Assembly (NCBI GenBank): GCA_013815325.1
Contig: JACDGM010000051.1
Location: forward strand, 1 to 33,665
DNA: 33,665 nt
DNA from: Chthoniobacterales bacterium
GTDB lineage: Bacteria > Verrucomicrobiota > Verrucomicrobiia > Chthoniobacterales > UBA10450
Direction of reading: 5' to 3'
Below, in pieces: positions 9,031-33,403 of the stretch (position 1 is the first letter of the stretch; each line of letters begins with the position of its first letter). The notes under the pieces were generated by a model. The model saw only the letters and a list, made by a program, of their open reading frames with translations. It was not told where the DNA came from and did not search any database. The translations under genes were made by a program, and so were the position numbers.

Positions 9031-9148
9031 GGGATCTCAGATTAGCAGCGACTTCGCTCGAACTCCATTGCGGATTCACCCGAGCCGTGGACTCCCTCAC
9101 AAATCAGTGTCTTGACAAACCGCCTTGGACTTGGTCAGTTTCGATCCC

Positions 9149-11083
9149 ATGTTTCCACACAATTTGAAAAGTTTTAGCGTTGCACCGGCAAGCCTTCTCG
9201 GCAGTCTTATTTTGTTTTCCAGCCTAACGATCGGATCCGGCCAGGCCGTGAAACACAAACCTCTCCCGACCGGGGAGCTGGAAAAATATGGCGACTCCCC
9301 GATTTACGTCTGGCGCAGCGGGACTTCGCCTCGCATGGTTTCGCAGCGCGACTCTTTCACCAGTACCCAGGTAAACGTGTCCTCGAATGGCTTGAATATC
9401 ACTGGCGACGCCGCGAACGAACCATCGATCTGTGTCGATCCGACCAATGGCAGCCGGATGGCCATCGGCTGGCGGCAGTTTGATAGCGTCGCTTCCAATT
9501 TCCGGCAGGCCGGTTGGGGTTATACTAGGAACGGCGGCGCCTCGTGGGCGTTTCCCGGCATCCTCGAGAACAATGTCTTTCGCAGTGACCCGGTCCTCGC
9601 TTCCGATAGCACCGGTGGCTTTTTCTATCTCAGCTTGCTCGAGACATTCTTCGATGACATGTGGCGCTCGCTCAACGGCGGCATCTCCTGGACTCGGCTG
9701 GCCCCCGCGACCGGCGGCGACAAGCAGTGGTTCACGATCGATAACACCAGCAGCACCGGGCATGGCTTTCAATATCAGAGCTGGAGCACAGGCGGGAATA
9801 ACTATGGCGGTCGGCAATTCAGCCGTTCGACCAATGGCGGGTTCACCTGGCTCAACCCAATCAATATTCCTAACTCTCCCTCCTGGGGAACACAGGACGT
9901 CGATACGGCTGGCAATCTCTTTATCGGCGGGGTGAATCTGAACACCGGGCAAATCTGGTGCGAACGCTCGACCGATGCGAAAAACGCGGCGCTCACTCCG
10001 GCCTTCGATCAAAGCACCGCGGTGAATCTAGGCGGCGACATCGGCTTCGGCGAGCCAATCAATCCTGTGGGCCTGGTTGGACAAGTGTTTCTGGCGGTGG
10101 ACCATTCGAGCCTCGCGACAAGGGATAACGTTTACATGCTGGCGAGCGTGCAGCCGACTGGCGCGAGTAATGGAAGCGATGTCATGTTCGTCCGCAGCTC
10201 CGATGGCGGCCGCACCTTCAGCACGCCGCTCCGGGTCAACGACGATCCGATTAACCACAATAAATGGCATTGGTTTGGCACACTCGCTGTCGCGCCTAAT
10301 GGTCGCATCGACAGCGTTTGGCTGGATAGCCGCAATGCCGCGAATAACACCGATTCTCAGCTCTTTTATTCCTACAGCGTGGACGCCGGGGTCACCTGGG
10401 CGCCGAACGTGGCGGTGAGTAACTCTTTCAATCCGTTCCTGGGCTATCCGAACCAGAATAAAATGGGTGATTACATTACTATCGTATCCGATAACACGGG
10501 CGGTAATGTCGCTTACACGGCTACCTTTAATGGCGAGGAAGACATCTACTATGTGCGGGTCGCTCCCACTGGAGGCGGCGAACTTACCCTGACGAGCGCG
10601 GCGTCAGTGAAAAGTGGGTTCGGCATCGATTTGCCGCTGACCGGGACGCCTGGAATCGAAGACCGGAGCGGCGGCCGGGCAGGCGATTATGAGGTCGATT
10701 TCCTATTCAATAACAGCTTGAACGCCGTTGGCGGAGTCGCCACCAGCTGCGGGACTGTTTCCAGCACGAGGATTAGCGGCGACCGATTGGTGGTTAACCT
10801 GACCGGCGTAACCTGCAACGCGCAGGACCTGACTGTGACTCTAACGAATGTTACCGATACCCAGTCGAACACGCTGCCTTCGGCGTCTGTCACCATCGGT
10901 CTTTTACTTGGCGATGTGGACGGCGATGGTTCTGTGACTAGAACAGATTTCAATCAGGTGAAGGCGGACCAGGGGAAAACGACTGACGCGTCGAACTTCC
11001 ACGAAGATGTAAACGCGAACGGTACGATCGACAGAATGGACGCGAACCTGGTGAAGCGGGGCATAGGCACCTCCCTCCCCTAG
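9149..11083 (+). CDS. secreted Asp-box beta-propeller protein with C-terminal dockerin
   Basis: About 644 residues. After a signal sequence (LLGSLILFSSLTIGSGQA) comes a sialidase/BNR-type beta-propeller with recurrent Asp-box-like turns: RNGGASW, LNGGISW, TNGGFTW, SDGGRTF, VDAGVTW. A beta-rich linker follows, then a type I dockerin: DVDGDGSVTRTDFNQVK and DVNANGTIDRMDANLVK, two calcium-binding F-hand loops. No sialidase RIP or catalytic Tyr motif is recognised, so enzymatic activity is unproven. Dockerins outside clostridia often occur singly in soil bacteria without a scaffoldin. ATG 9149 was preferred over an upstream TTG at 9125. The stop lies inside the left end of the MITE-like element. 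Confidence 0.8.
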   Translation: MFPHNLKSFSVAPASLLGSLILFSSLTIGSGQAVKHKPLPTGELEKYGDSPIYVWRSGTSPRMVSQRDSFTSTQVNVSSNGLNITGDAANEPSICVDPTNGSRMAIGWRQFDSVASNFRQAGWGYTRNGGASWAFPGILENNVFRSDPVLASDSTGGFFYLSLLETFFDDMWRSLNGGISWTRLAPATGGDKQWFTIDNTSSTGHGFQYQSWSTGGNNYGGRQFSRSTNGGFTWLNPINIPNSPSWGTQDVDTAGNLFIGGVNLNTGQIWCERSTDAKNAALTPAFDQSTAVNLGGDIGFGEPINPVGLVGQVFLAVDHSSLATRDNVYMLASVQPTGASNGSDVMFVRSSDGGRTFSTPLRVNDDPINHNKWHWFGTLAVAPNGRIDSVWLDSRNAANNTDSQLFYSYSVDAGVTWAPNVAVSNSFNPFLGYPNQNKMGDYITIVSDNTGGNVAYTATFNGEEDIYYVRVAPTGGGELTLTSAASVKSGFGIDLPLTGTPGIEDRSGGRAGDYEVDFLFNNSLNAVGGVATSCGTVSSTRISGDRLVVNLTGVTCNAQDLTVTLTNVTDTQSNTLPSASVTIGLLLGDVDGDGSVTRTDFNQVKADQGKTTDASNFHEDVNANGTIDRMDANLVKRGIGTSLP

Positions 11084-11418
11084 AGGGTGTCATGGACTTT
11101 ATTCCCTGAGAGGGGGTTCCCTCATCGCTGACGAGCTTCTGCGGTTGGACGTCTCGCATGCGTTTGAAAGCCCGGCCTCACTCGCTGTGCGAGCTGCGTT
11201 ACGGCGCGTGCTGGCGACGGTGTTGCACCGTCGCGAACTTTCCCAAGACGCGGCGAGCGCACGAAAATGATGGGGGAAGGAAAAGTTCGTCGCGCTAAAT
11301 CAGCGCGACCGGCACACGCCGTAACGCAGCGCGCCTAGCGAGCGAGGCCGGGCTTTCAAACGTGTGCGCTACCCGGGCGCTACCTGCTCCTCTGCAAAAG
11401 TGCATGACACGCTCTAGT
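11079..11418. mobile_element. MITE-like element with terminal and subterminal inverted repeats
   Basis: Left end TAGAGGGTGTCATGGACTTT (11082 on) and right end AAAGTGCATGACACGCTCTA (to 11415) are inverted copies with two mismatches. Further in, a second arm pair of over 50 bp (around 11154-11211 and 11314-11370) shares TTTGAAAGCCCGGCCTC and TGCGTTACGGCG. The centre holds smaller hairpins (GACGGTGTTGCACCGTC). No ORF of note lies inside. A non-coding element of about 335 bp with inverted ends is MITE-like and would need a transposase in trans. The left end overlaps the stop codon of the dockerin gene. Target duplication is unclear beyond CTAG on both sides. Confidence 0.55.
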
Positions 11419-11492
11419 TGACTCTGCCAAAGAAAGCGAAACCGCGGTGGTAGGGCCTGGACATGCGGACTCGCCACGATGGCGACCTTCAC

Positions 11493-12215
11493 CTAACGAG
11501 CATGGGAGAGGCCCGGCCGGAAGGTAACCCGCTGTTCGTCGATCACCCCGCCCCGCTCAAGAAAGTATCGGCGAACGTTTTCGGGATAGAAGCGGCCATC
11601 ATTCTCCCGATTGAAGCCTAGCTGGATCCGGCCGCCCCCCTTGAGCCGCGTCTCAAGATCATCGAGGAAAAACGACCATTCCGCTGGCTCCCAAAGGGTG
11701 GGACTCTTGTGGCCGTTGAAGCAGATCATAAAAGCGGTAATGAGATCGAATTTGTGATCGAAGGGGGGCAGCGGCTCGTAAGCCTTTACCCGCCAGATGA
11801 TCCGCGGGATCCCGAGCATCCGAGTCATTTCCCCATACATCGGCAACTCGTCGAGGTCGAGCCCGAGCGGGTCATGCCCAAGCCACTTGCAGATGAAAAG
11901 AAAGTAACCGGCTCCCGAACCGATATCGAGAATCTGTTTCCGCCGACCCCAGTCGAGATCGAGCTCATGAACTCGTTGCAGATTGGTCCGGATCCATCTG
12001 TTGAGATCGAGGTACTTCGGCCAAGTATCCCCTGGATCCGCCACCGCATGTCGATCGTAAATTGCCTGAAACTTATCCCGATCGATCGCCTTAAAGATGG
12101 CCTCGTCGAGGGAGAAGACGAAGCGCCGGCTCAGCAAGACAACACCGATGTGCTGGCGCGCGCTGCGTAGAACGAGCGGGTTCATTAGCTTCTTAAGCTT
12201 ATGCGAAAGGCGCAT
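11493..12215 (-). CDS. class I SAM-dependent methyltransferase
   Basis: About 240 residues. Motif I is QILDIGSGAGYFLFICKWLG, binding S-adenosylmethionine, followed by an acidic residue after the second strand (GLDLDELP) and a motif IV region (FDLITAFMICFNGHK). The N terminus has a basic helix (LSHKLKKLMNPLVL). Substrate unknown. I start at ATG 12215, 13 bases after the stop of the monooxygenase gene, giving a tight minus-strand operon; a longer start at 12257 would overlap that gene. The stop TAG is part of a TCGTTAGGT copy of the recurrent motif (core 11492-11498). Confidence 0.75.
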   Translation of the reverse strand: MRLSHKLKKLMNPLVLRSARQHIGVVLLSRRFVFSLDEAIFKAIDRDKFQAIYDRHAVADPGDTWPKYLDLNRWIRTNLQRVHELDLDWGRRKQILDIGSGAGYFLFICKWLGHDPLGLDLDELPMYGEMTRMLGIPRIIWRVKAYEPLPPFDHKFDLITAFMICFNGHKSPTLWEPAEWSFFLDDLETRLKGGGRIQLGFNRENDGRFYPENVRRYFLERGGVIDEQRVTFRPGLSHAR

Positions 12216-12228
12216 GGTTAAGAAGGCG

Positions 12229-13563
12229 CTACCCGGAGATACGTCGTAGCACGCCAATGAGTAGGGTCACGACGACGAAGACAAGGACGAGCAAACCGGT
12301 ATAAACGATACGATCCTGCCGTAGGGCACGCCGCGCGGCTTCCGCATATGGGATGCGAGTGAAAGATACCATGGTATAAAGCGGCAGGTAAACCCCTGGA
12401 AGCCATCCTTCGAGGGTGTGCTCGAGCTTCTTCTTCGCCCGGAATACGCGCGAAGCAGTTTTGTCGCGCATCTCGATGAAGTTATGCAGCGCGAGGTCGG
12501 CAAGGGCATCGGCGTTTTCCTTGCGCCGGTCGAAATACTCGGCAAAGGCCCGCTTACGTTCGTTAGGGAACTCGGCCAGGCATTCGTCCAAGACGACGCA
12601 GTCTTCGAAGGCGGCATTCATCCCCTGGCCATAAAACGGCACCACCGCGTGAGAGGCGTCCCCAAGGAGCGTGACCTTGTCTTCGTAATACCACGGTGCG
12701 CAGCGAATCGTTACGAGTGAGCCGGTCGGGTTCCTCTTAAAGTCGTCGAGCAGCGCCGGCATGAGCGCGACGGCATCGGGAAATTCCTCGTCGAAAAAGC
12801 TCCGCACTTCGTCGTCCGTCTGAGTGGTCGCGAAACTACACGGACCCTCAAACTCCCAGAAGAGCGTGCAGGTAAAAGAGCCGTCCGGATTGGGCAAGGC
12901 AATCATCATGAAACTTCGGCGCGGCCAGATATGAAGCGCGTTCTTTTCCATCTGCCACGAGCCTTCAACCGAGGGCGGGATTGTCAGCTCCTTGTAACCA
13001 TGTGGCAGATAACTCTGGCTATACTTAAACGGGCTCAGCCGTTGCATCGCTCCGCGCACGGCCGAGAAGGCGCCATCAACTCCTATAATGGCGTCAGCCC
13101 GCGCTGTGCTCGGAACGTTCGTTTCGCTCTGAACCAAATGCGCGGCGGGCGCGTTAAGGTCAACATCGGTACAGCGTTGGTTGAACATCACCCGCACGTT
13201 TGCGTAACGCTGCGCGGCTTGAATGACTATGGTATTTAATACATCACGTCCGATGGAGTTGATGCACTTGTTCGGATCGCGATCGTAGGGCGAAAAGTGC
13301 AACGTGCCGGCCTTGTCGTGGATCATCCGGCCGCGCATCGGGATGGCGTGTCGCAAAACTTCATCGGCGAGATCGAGCTGCCGCAGCGCATGAATCCCGC
13401 GGGTCGAGAGTGCAAGATTGATGGAGCGCCCGCCGACCGTATTACCCGCTCGCGGATCGGGCCGGCGCTCGAAGAGGTCGACCTCATAACCGCGGCGACC
13501 GAGGAAACCAGCGAGTAATCCCCCGGCCAGACCACTACCGATGAGGGCAAATTTGGAACCCAT
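12229..13563 (-). CDS. kmo: kynurenine 3-monooxygenase with C-terminal membrane anchor
   Basis: A 444-residue FAD monooxygenase that hydroxylates L-kynurenine to 3-hydroxykynurenine with NADPH and O2. The N-terminal Rossmann motif is ALIGSGLAGGLLAGFL. FERRPDPR and GRSINLALSTRG are diagnostic for this family, as are GRDVLN and the second FAD motif TLLGDASHAVVPFYGQGMNA. The C terminus ends with YTGLLVLVFVVVTLLIGVL, a predicted transmembrane helix, as in mitochondrial enzymes. ATG 13563 is chosen since the FAD motif follows directly. It is the first gene before the methyltransferase; kynureninase lies 0.7 kb away on the same strand, separated by a plus-strand response regulator. Confidence 0.92.
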   Translation of the reverse strand: MGSKFALIGSGLAGGLLAGFLGRRGYEVDLFERRPDPRAGNTVGGRSINLALSTRGIHALRQLDLADEVLRHAIPMRGRMIHDKAGTLHFSPYDRDPNKCINSIGRDVLNTIVIQAAQRYANVRVMFNQRCTDVDLNAPAAHLVQSETNVPSTARADAIIGVDGAFSAVRGAMQRLSPFKYSQSYLPHGYKELTIPPSVEGSWQMEKNALHIWPRRSFMMIALPNPDGSFTCTLFWEFEGPCSFATTQTDDEVRSFFDEEFPDAVALMPALLDDFKRNPTGSLVTIRCAPWYYEDKVTLLGDASHAVVPFYGQGMNAAFEDCVVLDECLAEFPNERKRAFAEYFDRRKENADALADLALHNFIEMRDKTASRVFRAKKKLEHTLEGWLPGVYLPLYTMVSFTRIPYAEAARRALRQDRIVYTGLLVLVFVVVTLLIGVLRRISG

Positions 13564-16511: not shown

Positions 16512-16607
16512 GAGATATCTTCGCGCCTCCGAGAGCTCCTGCGGGTTGCAGTTCCGAATGCTTTGGACGGCACGGCCGAGTTACACGCCATGCTTCTACG
16601 GGTTCAA

Positions 16608-16628
16608 AGTGCATGACCCGCTCTGGAG
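16608..16628. repeat. solo end resembling the MITE-like terminal repeat
   Basis: AAGTGCATGACCCGCTCTGG at 16608 matches the right end of the element at 11079-11418 (AAGTGCATGACACGCTCTAG) at 18 of 20 positions. No matching inverted end is found nearby. The gap 16512-16712 has no other feature I can support. Confidence 0.45.
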
Positions 16629-24865: not shown

Positions 24866-26263
24866 TCATAAGAAACCGGATGGAATCCTTCCGCCAGGTT
24901 GTCCGCCGTAGAAGGTCGCAAGATAAAAGCCTGCTTCGGCACTCAGGTTTCCCAAATAGGCATTATAACCGTCCGTGCCGGGGGCAAACCCGCCAAAAGG
25001 TCCGCTAAACGCTCACTGGAAGGTAGAAATTAACGTTGTTTCCATACTGCGTGTACTGAAAGCCTTCGCCAGAAGGATCGCTGCAGTTAAAGGGATTATT
25101 GGCGCAGTAGCGGTAGAGGTTGGCGGGGTCGCCGCCGAAGCCGATCGGGTCGGGCTGGAGGAAGCGGCCCAGGCCGGCCAGGTAGGCGCGGGCGCGCAGG
25201 TCCAATATCCCGTAGCCCACATACCACTTCTGCCCCGTGAAGAGCATGTCCACGGTATAGTTTCCTCCCGCCGTCAGCACGACCCCTGCGGGGCTGAGGA
25301 AGGTCGGTTTGCCTCCCACGTCATAAGTGTATTTCTCCAGGAGTAGGCCCGTGCCATCGGCCAGGTAGCTCGTGCTCCCCGAGCCGTCCGCGTAATAATA
25401 TATCTGTTGCGGCATCGGGCTGCGCACCAGGTCGCCCCCGGCATAGACCCAGCGGTTGAGCGCTGTCGCGCTCCCACCCGGGGCATATTCCGCCACCCGG
25501 TTCGCCCCGTCCCACACGCTGTAGATCGTGGCGGTGCCTATCTTGCGCGCCACCTGTCGTCCCAGTCCATCGTAGTAGAAGTCCGAGGTCGTCCCACCGA
25601 TGTCCGCGCTTGTTAGCCGGTTCAGCGCGTCGTAGCTGTAGGTCCAGCCGGCGTAGCCGGTCACGTTGCCATTCCCGCTGTAACCGAGGGAATTTGAGCC
25701 CGCGAGGGTGTATTGATTCAGCCCGTTGGGCGTGTAGTTCGTCGTCACCCCGCCTGCGACGAGCTTGGTCCGGTTCCCGCTCTCATCGTAGGTCAAGGTC
25801 GAGACCGCTCCGCCCAGGCTATAGCTGGTCATCTGGCTGTTCTTATCGTAGCCCAGCGAGTCGATCACGCCGCCCTCGCGTTGCGCCGTCATCCGGTTGC
25901 CCACCTCGTCATAGGTGTAATTGAAGACCTTCGCCCCGCCATTGGCCCCGGCAAAATTGTGCGTGATCTTCGTCACCCGGTTCATCGGGTCATAGATGAA
26001 GCTGCTCGCCGGGTTGGTCCCGGGCGTGCGCGTCAGCGCGTTGCCGCTGTCGTCGTAGGTGTAGCTGACGACGTTGGCCCCGAAGTAGCTCATACTCGCA
26101 AGCTGATCGCGCCCCGTATAACTCTAATCATACGGCACCGGCCCGGGATAGGTGACCGTGGCCCGGTTCCCGTCGCCGTGGTAGTCGTAGCTGATGGTGC
26201 GATGGGTGCCGTCGCCATAGAGCCCGGTGCCCCATTCCTCCTGCGATTTCAAGCGGAGCCATA
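24866..26263 (-). pseudogene. RHS core 2 with short variable tip
   Basis: The frame 26093-25005 carries many YD repeats (YTYDDSGNALTRTPG, YDEVGNRMTAQREGG, FYYDGLGRQVARKIG) and the hallmark core end LRARAYLAGLGRFLQPDPIG with NLYRYCANNPF..SDPSG; the variable tip then starts GFQYTQYGNNVNFYL. Upstream the same frame continues through a TAG (Y-D-stop-S-Y-T-G, about 26125) to the REP at 26264, so the 5' end is lost. After the stop at 25005 a shifted frame gives SGPFGGFAPGTDGYNAYLGN to a stop near 24866, probably the real tip end. It is a broken toxin-delivery protein. Confidence 0.85.
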
Positions 26264-26287
26264 GGGGTCAGAGCTTACTATCGACAC
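26264..26287 (-). repeat. REP element overlapping the transposase stop codon
   Basis: Inverse orientation of the 24-base REP. On the minus strand it encodes the transposase's last residues SVDSKL and its TGA stop, so transposase and REP are fused. Confidence 0.85.
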
Positions 26288-27197
26288 TGGAAAGAAGGTT
26301 CGAAACGTAACTCGCGCTGCCCATGCGCAGGCGCTCGGCAATCCAGCGCCGACTCATCGGCGTCTGACTGCGTAACTGCCGGGCTAGCTCCACTTTCACC
26401 GGGTGCCCTTTCGGCTGCAATGCCAGATCCACTTCCCGCCACCGCACCACCGCGAGCGCTTCGCGCACCAGGCGCTGCGCCAGCGCCGTGTCGGTCTCCG
26501 CCCGTTCCGACGCGCGCTCCCCCCGCCGGCCCGCGCGGGAGAGTTTCTCCGCCAGCCAATCCGCAAAATCCTCCGCCCCCAGTTTCCAGCCTCCGCGCAG
26601 CTGCTCCTCTTCCTCACCCTCTGCTCTGGCCCGCGCCACAATCATTCGCCGTTCAAATTCTCTCCTGCTCCGGGGCGTATCCTCGACCAGCCCATGTTCC
26701 CCCAACAGCCGATCGGTCCGCAGCCACGGCGGCCGTTCCTTGGGATGCCGATACGCTCCGTAGCTGCTCCACGGATAGCCCTCCAATTTCTCCCCCGGCC
26801 CAACCAGTCCCGCTCGCACCGGATTGAGATGCACGTAATCGCAGGCCGCGCGCAGGTAGCTCTCCGAGCGTTCATCGATCAACTGCGCCTTGTAGCGGCC
26901 TTGGAAGAGATGTCCGCTCAGCCGATGCCGCCGATTAAAGCGCTGCGTGTAGGTGCCGAGGAACCACTTCATCCCAAGGGCCAGATTGGCCTGCGGCGTC
27001 TCCACGACCAGATGAAAGTGATTGCTCATCAGACAATAGGCGTGCACCTCCCAGCCCGTCTTGCCACAGACTTGCTCCAGCGCGCACAGGAACGCCCGCC
27101 GGTCCGCGTCATCGAGAAAGATGGCTTCGCGCCGATCGCCCCGGCTCAGCACATGATAAAGCGCTCCCGCGTATTCGATCCGGAGCGGTCGGGCCAT
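26268..27197 (-). CDS. REP-associated tyrosine transposase (RAYT), full length
   Basis: 309 residues. MARPLRIEYAGALYHVLSRG opens the Y1 transposase fold. His60 and His62 of SNHFHLVVETP form the HUH metal site, and Tyr83 in GTYTQRFNRRH is the likely nucleophile that nicks single-stranded REP DNA. GHLFQGRYKAQLID, CDYVHLNPVRAGL and GYPWSSYGAYRH follow. The C-terminal part is helical, with SRRWIAERLRMGSASYVSNL as a DnaA/Trp-repressor-like helix-turn-helix. REPs lie on both sides in inverted orientation (26264 and 27226). RAYTs are normally single-copy, vertically kept genes that mobilise REP/REPIN repeats in trans. It interrupts RHS sequence. A truncated near-identical copy is at 33181. Confidence 0.93.
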   Translation of the reverse strand: MARPLRIEYAGALYHVLSRGDRREAIFLDDADRRAFLCALEQVCGKTGWEVHAYCLMSNHFHLVVETPQANLALGMKWFLGTYTQRFNRRHRLSGHLFQGRYKAQLIDERSESYLRAACDYVHLNPVRAGLVGPGEKLEGYPWSSYGAYRHPKERPPWLRTDRLLGEHGLVEDTPRSRREFERRMIVARARAEGEEEEQLRGGWKLGAEDFADWLAEKLSRAGRRGERASERAETDTALAQRLVREALAVVRWREVDLALQPKGHPVKVELARQLRSQTPMSRRWIAERLRMGSASYVSNLLSSVDSKL

Positions 27198-27257: not shown

Positions 27258-27436
27258 CCCTCTCATCGTAGGTCAAGGTCGAGACCGCTCCGCCCAGGCT
27301 GTAGCTGGTCATCTGGCTGTTCTTGTCGTAGCCAAGCGAGTCGATCACCCCGCCCTCACGTTGCGCCGTCATCCGGTTGCCCACCTCGTCATAGGTGTAG
27401 TTGAAGACCTTCGCCCCGCCATTGACCCCGGCAAAA
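27258..27436 (-). pseudogene. RHS core fragment, copy B of a repeated segment
   Basis: About 175 bases nearly identical to 25779-25954 and to 33542-33665. The minus strand reads FNYTYDEVGNRMTAQREGGV, then SLGYDKNSQMTSYSLGGAVS and LTYDE. Both ends are cut, by a REP plus CCGATTCTGAC on one side and by the REPIN at 27449 on the other. Confidence 0.85.
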
Positions 27437-27448
27437 ATGCGTCAGATA

Positions 27449-30929: not shown

Positions 30930-33003
30930 GATTCGTATGCTTCTTCAAGGAGCTCATGTGCTACCGGATTTGTTACGGTGAGAGTTGACGTCGGAATGAC
31001 GACGCCCAAATAGATGTATGTAACTAACGGCTGTGCTTGGGAGAGAACAGCGGCTGCAACAGCAGGCACAGCTTCCACCGCAGCGAGAGAGGCTGCGCCG
31101 ATGGCCGGCGCAGCTGCCGCAACACCAACTCCGCCCAAGTATGAAATGGTCGTTGCGTCGACGACGTTGGCAAACTGCCGCATCCTAGCTCCAGCGGCTG
31201 GGCTTGGACCGTAAGAGGCGAGTTGATGCGGATCGATGTTGAATCCTCCGCCACCGCCACCACCACGACCGTCACCTTGGGAGCCACCATCGAAAGGACT
31301 GTAGTCTCCTACTCCCGCAGTTCTGTCGAAGCCGGGATCCCACAGATTGCCAATGGTGTCTCCGCTAGAAACGTAGACGTGGTCGGTAGTGAGAGTCGGT
31401 CCGGTGGCCGATGGAACCACATTGCTACCGTCGGGTGCGACGGGGTAATAGTCGCCATTAGAATTCTGCGCAGACCATGAACTGCTTGAACTGCTTGAAC
31501 TGCTCGATTGAATACCGTTGTTGCTGAATATCTTCAAAAACTTGGTCCAAATACCGGTCAAAGAAAATAGTCCGCTAGGGTCACTCAGGTTCGACGGACT
31601 ATTGCCACAATAACGGTAGAGATTACTTGCATCGCCGCCAAAGCCGATCGGGTCCGGCTGGAGGAAGCGGCCGAGGCTGGGGAGATAGGCGCGGTTGCGC
31701 AGGTCGAGGATACCCAGCTGGCTGTACCACTTTTGGCCCGTGAAAAGGTGGGTCACGTCGTAAAGCGTTCCACCGGACGGATGACTCCGTTGGGATCATA
31801 AACCGTCGGCGTCCCAGCCAAGTCGTAGGTGTATTTCTCGATCAAATTGCCCGCGGAATCGGCCACATAGGCAGTGCTGCCCACGCCATCGGGGTAAATA
31901 AAGGTCGTCGGCAGTCCCGCCTCGCTTTGCTCGATCAAGTCGGCCCCGGCTCCGTGGATGGGGAGGTTGTCCAGGATGTTACCCGCCGTGTATTCGGCAT
32001 ACAAGGTCCACCCATCCCAGACGCTAAACGTGGTCGGGCTCCCGCTAATGGTGCGGGCCACCTGCCGGTTCAAGCCGTCATAATAAAAATTCGCGGTCAC
32101 TCCGCCGGGCCCGCTCGCCACCGTCAGGCGGTTCATCGAGTCATAGGTATAGGTCCATCCGTTGTAGGTCTTCAGGTTGCCGTTGCCCCCGTAGCTCAGC
32201 GCTGCTCCTCCCACTGTCGTGTATTGGTTCAATGTGTTCGCCGCCCCGTAGCTCGTGCTCCCCACGCTCTTCCGATTCCCACTCGCGTCGTAGGTCAGGC
32301 TGGTGCTGACTCCGCTCTGGCTGTAGCTCGTCATCTCGCTGTTGTTATCGTAGCCGATCGAGGCGAAGGCGACCCCGTTGCGCTGCTCGGAAATGCGATT
32401 GCTCACTTCATCGTAGCCGTAGCTCAGGGAGCGGCTGCCGTTGGCGAAGGGATGCGTGATGCTCGTCACCCGGTTAAGCGCGTCGTAGGCAAAGCTGCTG
32501 CCAACACTGTTATTGAGGGTGCGGGTGGTCATGTCGCCGTTCTTGTCGTAGAGATAGCTGCCATAGACAATGCCATTGCCCGCATTGGTGACGGTCGAAA
32601 TCTGATTCCGAGAAGTGTAGCCGTAATTCAGCGTCAGACCAGGAAAGCCGACACTCGCCCGGTTCCCATCTGCATTGTATGTGTAGCTCCCGATGTGGTG
32701 AACATTATCGCCAAAGTAACTCGTCCATTCCTCCTGCGAATTGAGGAGGTTGTCCTTGTAACAGGTAAAAAGGATATGCGTACTGATGGTGTCGCAGGCG
32801 GTGACGCGGGAGGCGTCGTCGTAGATGAGGGTGCGCGTCTGAGGCGAGCCCGTGCTCCAACTGTTGTTCTTCTCCCGGTTGCGCACGTCGTAGGCGAAGG
32901 TTTGCATCGCCCCGGCGCGATTCTTGAAGGTGAGCAGGTTGCCCGCAATATCATAGCCGCGCGTCTCGGTCGCGCCGCCCGGATAGGTCGGGGTAGTCAG
33001 ATA
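30914..33003 (-). pseudogene. RHS core 4 and variable tip, split by a frameshift
   Basis: Core frame (33003-31753): YD repeats (GYDIAGNLLTFKNRAG, FAYDALNRVTSITHPF, FYYDGLNRQVARTISG) to YTYDLAGTPTVYDPNGVIRP, then a wrong ending. The next frame restores TLYDVTHLFTGQKWYSQLGI and the core end LGRFLQPDPIGFGG, NLYRYCGNSPS..SDPSG (31756-30914); one lost base near 31780 explains it. After the core come a ten-Ser linker, a Gly run and an Ala/Val-rich tip (GGVGVAAAAPAIGAASLAAV), hydrophobic enough to act on membranes. The 5' end is cut by the REPIN at 33004, whose sequence supplies the open frame's first residues. Confidence 0.85.
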
Positions 33004-33129
33004 GGGGTCAGAGCTTACTATCGACACTGTTGAATGAGAACGCGGCATTCAAATGAAGTTAGGGAGGCGGTGTCGACTATGCAAACCAGAAACATTGCTC
33101 AAGAATCATGTGTCGATAGTAAGCTCCCC
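33004..33129. repeat. REPIN copy 3
   Basis: Inverted REPs at 33004-33027 and 33110-33129 around the shared spacer. The right REP lacks a few bases (AAGCTCCCC instead of AAGCTCTGACCCC), so this copy is decaying. It truncates RHS core 4. Confidence 0.85.
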
Positions 33130-33181: not shown

Positions 33182-33403
33182 AAGGGCCAGATTGGCCTGC
33201 GGCGTCTCCACGACCAGATGAAAGTGATTGCCCATCAGACAATAGGCGTGCACCTCCCAGCCCGTCTTGCCACAGACTTGCTCCAGCGCGCACAGGAACG
33301 CCCGCCGGTCCGCGTCATCGAGAAAGATGGCTTCGCCCCGATCGCCCCGGCTCAGCACATGATAAAGCGCTCCCGCGTATTCTATCCGGAGCGGTCGGGC
33401 CAT
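33181..33403 (-). pseudogene. truncated second copy of the RAYT gene
   Basis: Residues 1-75 match the full RAYT at 26268-27197 with only about two substitutions (R23G, S58G), including the HUH motif GNHFHLVVETP. After NLALG the frame runs into repeat family 2 and stops, so the catalytic Tyr and the rest are missing. The upstream sequence, including the variant REP at 33431, is also shared, so this was a duplication of the whole unit followed by truncation. Confidence 0.9.

Follow-up and report, generated by a model that had tools for sequence, protein, structure and literature searches.

A probable IS5-type miniature element at the stop codon of a dockerin gene in a Chthoniobacterales bacterium

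The dockerin gene and the element at its stop

The DNA analysed here (the window, 33,665 nucleotides from a Chthoniobacterales bacterium) is part of contig C141 of a genome assembly of 4.15 Mb in 209 contigs. Its forward strand carries a gene for a dockerin type I protein (9125-11083, coding-model start at 9212; PF00404 at residues 595-646), which faces a convergent gene on the reverse strand (11493-12257) with a weak methyltransferase-domain match (PF13649, below the curated cut-off). Between the two lies an element of 332 bp (11083-11414), with TA at either flank (11081-11082 and 11415-11416). Including this TA, its terminal inverted repeats, TAGAGGGTGTCATGGACTTT (11081-11100, forward) and TAGAGCGTGTCATGCACTTT (11397-11416, reverse), are identical at 18 of 20 positions, and by match to the end pattern the repeats within the element span 11083-11102 (forward) and 11395-11414 (reverse). 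Ends of this type are written GAGSGTGTCATG, and the end motif of the element group is also given as GAGCGTGTCATGCACTTT. With up to three mismatches allowed, the shared end pattern occurs three times in the window; 100 shuffles gave 0.02 matches on average. Furthermore, a solo and decayed end of the same family (16606-16625, reverse) departs from this pattern at two positions, of which one belongs to the flanking TA, replaced there by CA. A sequence-only reading of the window had proposed a non-coding, MITE-like hairpin element of 335 bases with inverted ends, abutting the dockerin stop, together with a solo end near 16608. Element, ends and solo end proved real, while the size was refined to 332 bp and the contact with the stop turned out to be more than mere contact, as the stop TAG (11081-11083) itself consists of the flanking TA and the first base of the element.

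The element also contains the long inner arm pair noted in that reading (11155-11244 and 11279-11368, 90 nt, 78 % complementary), and its RNA is predicted to fold at -209.7 kcal/mol (z -11.8 versus 100 shuffles). No open reading frame of 80 aa or more was found within 11084-11492, a simple scan of 10900-11600 detected nothing resembling a terminator, and no stretch of the window attained the gathering score of an Rfam family.

An element-free version of the locus exists in the same-genus genome G043, as the sequence-only reading had suggested looking for. There, the dockerin ortholog is 78 % identical, has the same last residue and ends with NGTSLP and CCCTAG; the convergent gene that follows it is that of the window, and in the DNA alignment (to locus L278) the element is absent between them. 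This ortholog shows that the dockerin protein was not shortened by the insertion. A very strong fold immediately after a gene, in the interval of a convergent pair, might also suggest a host terminator or an mRNA-stabilising hairpin kept by selection, but this seems highly improbable, as there are several copies, bounded by transposon ends and flanked by TA, the orthologous G043 site lacks the hairpin, and neither the terminator scan nor the Rfam search of the window returned a match.

Dispersed copies and autonomous relatives

With 40 of the 101 candidates from a first look scored, a 340-bp query matched the own genome at 71 or more stretches. These form a mosaic, with outer parts found at few places and inner parts at many. 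Two-ended copies include those on contigs C141 (the window), C53, C88, C93, C172 and C198, and the genome search for the end that had been proposed from the sequence alone yielded several copies, with 19 distinct TA-flanked ends at up to two mismatches in the own-genome loci examined. At least one end with no more than one mismatch occurs in 32 of 83 family genomes, the highest counts being those of G029 (34), the own genome (24), G040 (10) and G041 (10); the reversed control of the end pattern gave scattered single matches in some family genomes. Furthermore, at least 117 stretches of named genomes carry this end together with a junction TAG, the matches listed including Lautropia, Lysobacter, Acidovorax and Phycisphaerae, and the same ends occur in contigs of Chthoniobacterales and Spartobacteria MAGs (for instance PNAA01000053.1 and JACCZO010000485.1). 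G029 may hold a recent burst of the family, since its count is the highest of the 83 genomes and several of its ends lie close to contig ends (e.g., L137, G029:C225). In G040, both contig ends of C7 and the start of C17 coincide exactly with the IS end, which is what an assembly interrupted at an IS of several copies should show.

These ends also enclose autonomous or formerly autonomous elements. In G040, of the same genus, they flank an 882-bp IS (L120) whose transposase is split and carries stops, with two pieces of L120 matching PF13340 and PF01609. In a Verrucomicrobiaceae MAG (L265), they flank an 897-bp IS with an open 273-aa transposase that matches the NCBIfam IS5-family model NF033580 at 1.5e-56, above the cut-off, which the transposase of L274 likewise exceeds. 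The stop TGA of the L265 transposase lies inside the right inverted repeat (L265:2096-2992; AGTGCATGACAC), so that the conserved end also encodes the last residues of this protein. Relatives occur in 2,320 plasmid records, mostly annotated as IS5 family and at most about 68 % identical; of four that were examined, three show recognisable ends of this type, flanked in each case by TA at left and right, and the fourth has no recognised ends. The IS5 family, for which ISfinder uses subgroup names such as IS427, ISL2 and others, comprises transposases of the same type (NF033580 transpos_IS5_3; Pfam DUF4096, DDE_Tnp_1) in autonomous elements of similar size. An IS630/Tc1-mariner origin, first guessed from the TA flanks, was rejected, as the own genome has no DDE_3 match and the relatives with these ends are of IS5 type.

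Hence, the ends, for which the sequence-only reading knew of no named family, can be assigned to the IS5-family type through the transposases of L120 and L265. The matching transposase whose search it had recommended exists in G040 and L265, whereas a search of the 83 family genomes with the L265 transposase (E 1e-10) gave matches in four and none in the own genome, in which a more distant IS5 transposase is possible. Since no related transposase was found there at this threshold, the own-genome copies are probably relics. Taken together, the element is short and non-coding with terminal inverted repeats, is dispersed in several copies, is absent from the orthologous place in a same-genus genome, and has ends common to autonomous elements (L120, L265), which argues that it is a MITE. 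It is not a single-copy element conserved in position in all relatives, as would be expected of a terminator or RNA.

Palindromes nested inside the element

Instead of transposon sequence, the inner arm pair is built from nested palindromes that are dispersed independently. On the left side, a palindromic repeat C of 44 bp (11163-11206, forward; 41 of 44 positions matching a consensus typed by eye) is followed by the inner half of a REP unit B (11208-11243, forward; 35/36 to a consensus likewise typed by eye), and on the right side the inner half of B (11279-11315, reverse; 34/37 to consensus) is followed by a second, inverted C (11317-11360, reverse; 43/44). The spacer of the REP doublet (11242-11281) overlaps the arms by 2-3 nt by definition. 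Units B and C each also occur alone, dispersed elsewhere in the own genome. Unit B starts with GTAGCGCA followed by a short hairpin, is paired in inverted orientation, and was counted 59, 66, 66 and 23 times in the four other genomes of the genus and 85 times in the own genome, with no match to the reversed pattern. The inner core therefore shows the GTAG with hairpin, the inverted pairing and the many dispersed copies by which GTAG REP doublets are recognised, the left GTAG end of the doublet being lost in the window copy.

The spacer length is 36-41 nt in 18 of 19 doublets. In 13 standalone doublets, spacer likeness is 0.56 versus 0.53 in shuffled sequence, while the arms are 0.95 and 0.89 alike. 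The five composite copies, in which the doublet lies within the MITE, have spacers that are 0.81 alike and unlike those of the standalone doublets (C110, which has the end and a different spacer, was set aside from both groups). Because the spacers are similar among composites and little alike among standalone doublets, we infer that a REP doublet was captured once by the MITE and that the composite then spread. A 137-bp copy (C172) resembles the composite with the doublet interior deleted. In the window copy, both B arms carry an inserted unit C; at C58 (L007), one arm does. A second shell type with the same ends (C93, C32 and C88:17213) holds another dispersed palindrome. Standalone REP doublets of genome G000 (L010, L012, L014, L016 and others) combine inverted arms of high similarity and a near-constant spacer length with mostly unrelated spacer sequence.

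It could be argued that such a doublet (REPIN) was moved by a RAYT alone and that the IS5-like ends are incidental, as GTAG REP units are abundant (85 in the own genome versus none for the reversed pattern) and the own genome has five Y1_Tnp matches, four of them over the cut-off. However, the 13 standalone doublets lack such an end (within 300 bp, the best matches differ at 4-6 of the 14 positions scored), the five composite copies have common ends in addition to their similar spacers, and such ends also bound IS copies as well as other shells, in which the palindrome is a different one; we thus regard an origin by RAYT alone as very unlikely, and the doublet as cargo of an IS5-type MITE.

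The five short loci with Y1_Tnp matches contain no B or C unit at 72 % identity within their short surroundings. One Y1_Tnp (RAYT-like) gene lies in the window (26268-27197, reverse), with four copies of an inverted repeat of about 28-37 nt, GTGTC(G/A)ATAGTAAGCTCTGACCCC, around it, and it sits between two 160-nt copies that are 95 % identical (25800-25959 and 27280-27439). A second, weak Y1_Tnp match (33197-33364, reverse) falls below the family cut-off. An RHS-repeat protein is encoded at 31753-33048.

Target site, stop codons and comparison with known systems

Among 47 paired copies, selected for TA on both sides, the target was CTAG in 14, CTAA in 12, TTAG in 6, TTAA in 4 and others in 11, so that YTAR accounts for 36 of the 47. 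A short TA-containing target of the kind seen in the IS5 family is thus found in these 36 pairs and in three of the four plasmid relatives. The first base of the element was a purine in all 50 exact ends (44 G and 6 A), and TA preceded 43 of them, giving TAR in a set of ends selected neither for their first base nor for TAR. Since the two sides of the junctions often differ outside the TA, the target, as read from these junctions, appears to be YTAR with TA duplicated. YTAR contains TAR; therefore, a TAA or TAG stop following a pyrimidine is itself a target, and the purine of the element restores it.

With a probability of roughly 0.88, we consider the window element to be a non-autonomous relative of the IS5 family (MITE), placed at a YTAR target with TA duplicated and the dockerin stop rebuilt. 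According to this model, a transposase acting in trans would have cut at the terminal repeats and joined the element across a 2-bp stagger at the TA inside YTAR, which would duplicate the TA. Here, the target would have been CTAG, of which TAG was the stop codon of the dockerin gene, and as the element starts with a purine (G, sometimes A), TA plus purine again reads as a stop, leaving the protein not shortened. The MITE interior is the captured REP doublet, lengthened by the second palindrome into a long hairpin, which is now located directly 3' of the dockerin stop in the predicted mRNA.

Other own copies lie at predicted stops as well (C88:21282, C116 and C167). The C88 copy is located at the stop of a response-regulator gene, presumably kdpE-like, whose G043 ortholog is 86 % identical, both having 230 codons; the sequence directly following the G043 stop aligns to own sequence located 364 nt past the stop there, with the element and a second partial end both skipped. 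The stop of this ortholog is TGA and not YTAR, which counts against the YTAR-stop reading at that site. The second partial family end directly follows the C88 copy, starting from a shared TA (G000:C88:21282-21650; L002, L043; TAGAGCGTCTCATGCGCTTT), which suggests that the junction of one MITE served as the insertion site of a second. The copy at C167 lies at the stop of a gene that we take to be DUF2254-like; its G041 ortholog is 75 % identical, has its stop TTAG one codon later and lacks the element. For the C116 gene, no ortholog was found in the genus. A first list had held five own stop insertions, of which the gene caller upheld the window copy alone; C53, C172, C198 and C88:17213 were not upheld, their open frames having 19, 28, 80 and 49 codons.

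Stops are over-represented among the insertion sites; this is clear in comparison with non-coding DNA as a whole, and less firm when the adjacent 3' flank is the reference. The counts at predicted stops rely on a home-made, codon-based gene caller and on loci that are not a random genome sample, those from named genomes having been fetched with a pattern requiring TAG at the junction, and the background is restricted to YTAR sites. In Verrucomicrobiota, 26 of 106 ends coincide exactly with the stop of a predicted gene, 3 lie within coding DNA and the other 77 are elsewhere, against background YTAR sites (per strand) of 108 at stops, 2,015 coding and 1,136 elsewhere. The odds ratio for stops is 3.6 (p 2e-6) versus all other non-coding YTAR sites; with the comparison confined to YTAR sites located 1-100 nt downstream of a stop, it is 2.5 (p 0.015). 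Outside the Verrucomicrobiota, stops account for 12 of 82 ends; the odds ratio is 9.1 (p 5e-7) against other non-coding sites, and the excess over YTAR in the following 100 nt does not reach significance (OR 2.0, p 0.20). A tetramer-matched comparison placed 12 of 28 paired Verrucomicrobiota YTAR copies at stops versus 4.9 expected (p 0.0015), 6 of 34 pairs being left out as non-YTAR, two of these six at stops. A raw count of open frames, superseded by the gene-caller test, had given at least 100 codons for 63 of 187 ends versus 70 of 497 control TAR sites. By the gene models of an earlier grouping, 16 of the 47 paired copies lie at stops. For 14 of 16 paired copies at stops, the reconstructed empty site holds an in-frame TAA or TAG. 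For the other two it reads TAT and TAC; hence, the element may have shortened those genes.

What causes this excess? Survivorship is a reasonably probable answer: the transposase would have no preference, and a rebuilt stop would be harmless where most other insertion sites are costly. Insertions inside genes are indeed nearly absent (the 3 ends versus 2,015 coding YTAR sites in Verrucomicrobiota), and the same survivorship argument has been made for pneumococcal repeats (PMC3049150). However, the frequency of hits at Verrucomicrobiota stops is 2.5 times that at YTAR in the following 100 nt, sites expected to be similarly harmless, although in other taxa this contrast with the 3' flank is not significant. 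We tentatively put forward, as a possible but doubtful explanation, that the transposase itself favours YTAR at stop codons, with the purine first base rebuilding the stop and gene 3' ends serving as harbour. An insertion at a CTAG common to two convergent genes could even spare both stops at once; among the copies examined, no such case was found.

IS630 and IS870, which likewise target CTAG and can generate a stop codon, resemble our element in the CTAG target, the TA and the stop made at the junction; the IS630-type transposase (DDE_3) has no match in the own genome, and the relatives of the element are of IS5 type. IS5-type elements that target CTAG/YTAA and MITEs derived from them are known (PMC3189936 and PMC11677980). 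For instance, MITEPsy1, a 100-nt element made from ISPsy2, has CTAG or YTAA as its target, of which it duplicates 4 nt, whereas the element described here has TA junctions, 332 bp and, unlike MITEPsy1 and ISPsy2, a REP cargo; the available portion of that report does not mention placement at stop codons (PMC3189936). GTAG REP dimers or REPINs resemble the inner core, with GTAG, a short hairpin and inverted pairing. The termini of these repeats often supply the stop TAG to flanking ORFs, some dimers sit within palindromes, and the verrucomicrobium O. terrae is rich in them (PMC3733652). In contrast, the outer element is a DDE-type MITE, whose stop is made from the target TA and an element base.

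Repeats supplying stops are already known, as in BOX and GTAG-REP elements. BOX encodes the stop of 36 of 58 overlapping CDSs, with no strong evidence for truncation, and pneumococcal repeats are enriched between convergent genes; BOX, RUP and SPRITE differ from our element in sequence, and a target containing a stop codon is not mentioned in the consulted part of that work (PMC3049150). QMITE2 is described as supplying a C-terminal extension with a stop immediately downstream (PMC5896051). In a review (PMC10969869), the term "stop codon" is absent. We found no report of IS5-type MITEs preferring or rebuilding stops in the open-licence literature, searched with partly loose terms, which is weak evidence of absence. 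The explicit link between YTAR target, purine first base and preservation of the stop, counted against a background, was likewise not found in the literature so searched.

The element is thus real and of an ordinary kind, with an instructive placement. Element-free orthologs illustrate how a transposon can enter the last codon of a gene without changing the protein, owing to a TAR in the target and a purine at the end of the element. If the stop excess reflects target choice, IS5-type elements and the MITEs belonging to them would follow a safe-harbour rule of general validity. Furthermore, REP doublets carried as cargo in a DDE-type MITE would let a RAYT-dependent repeat spread by means of another transposase.
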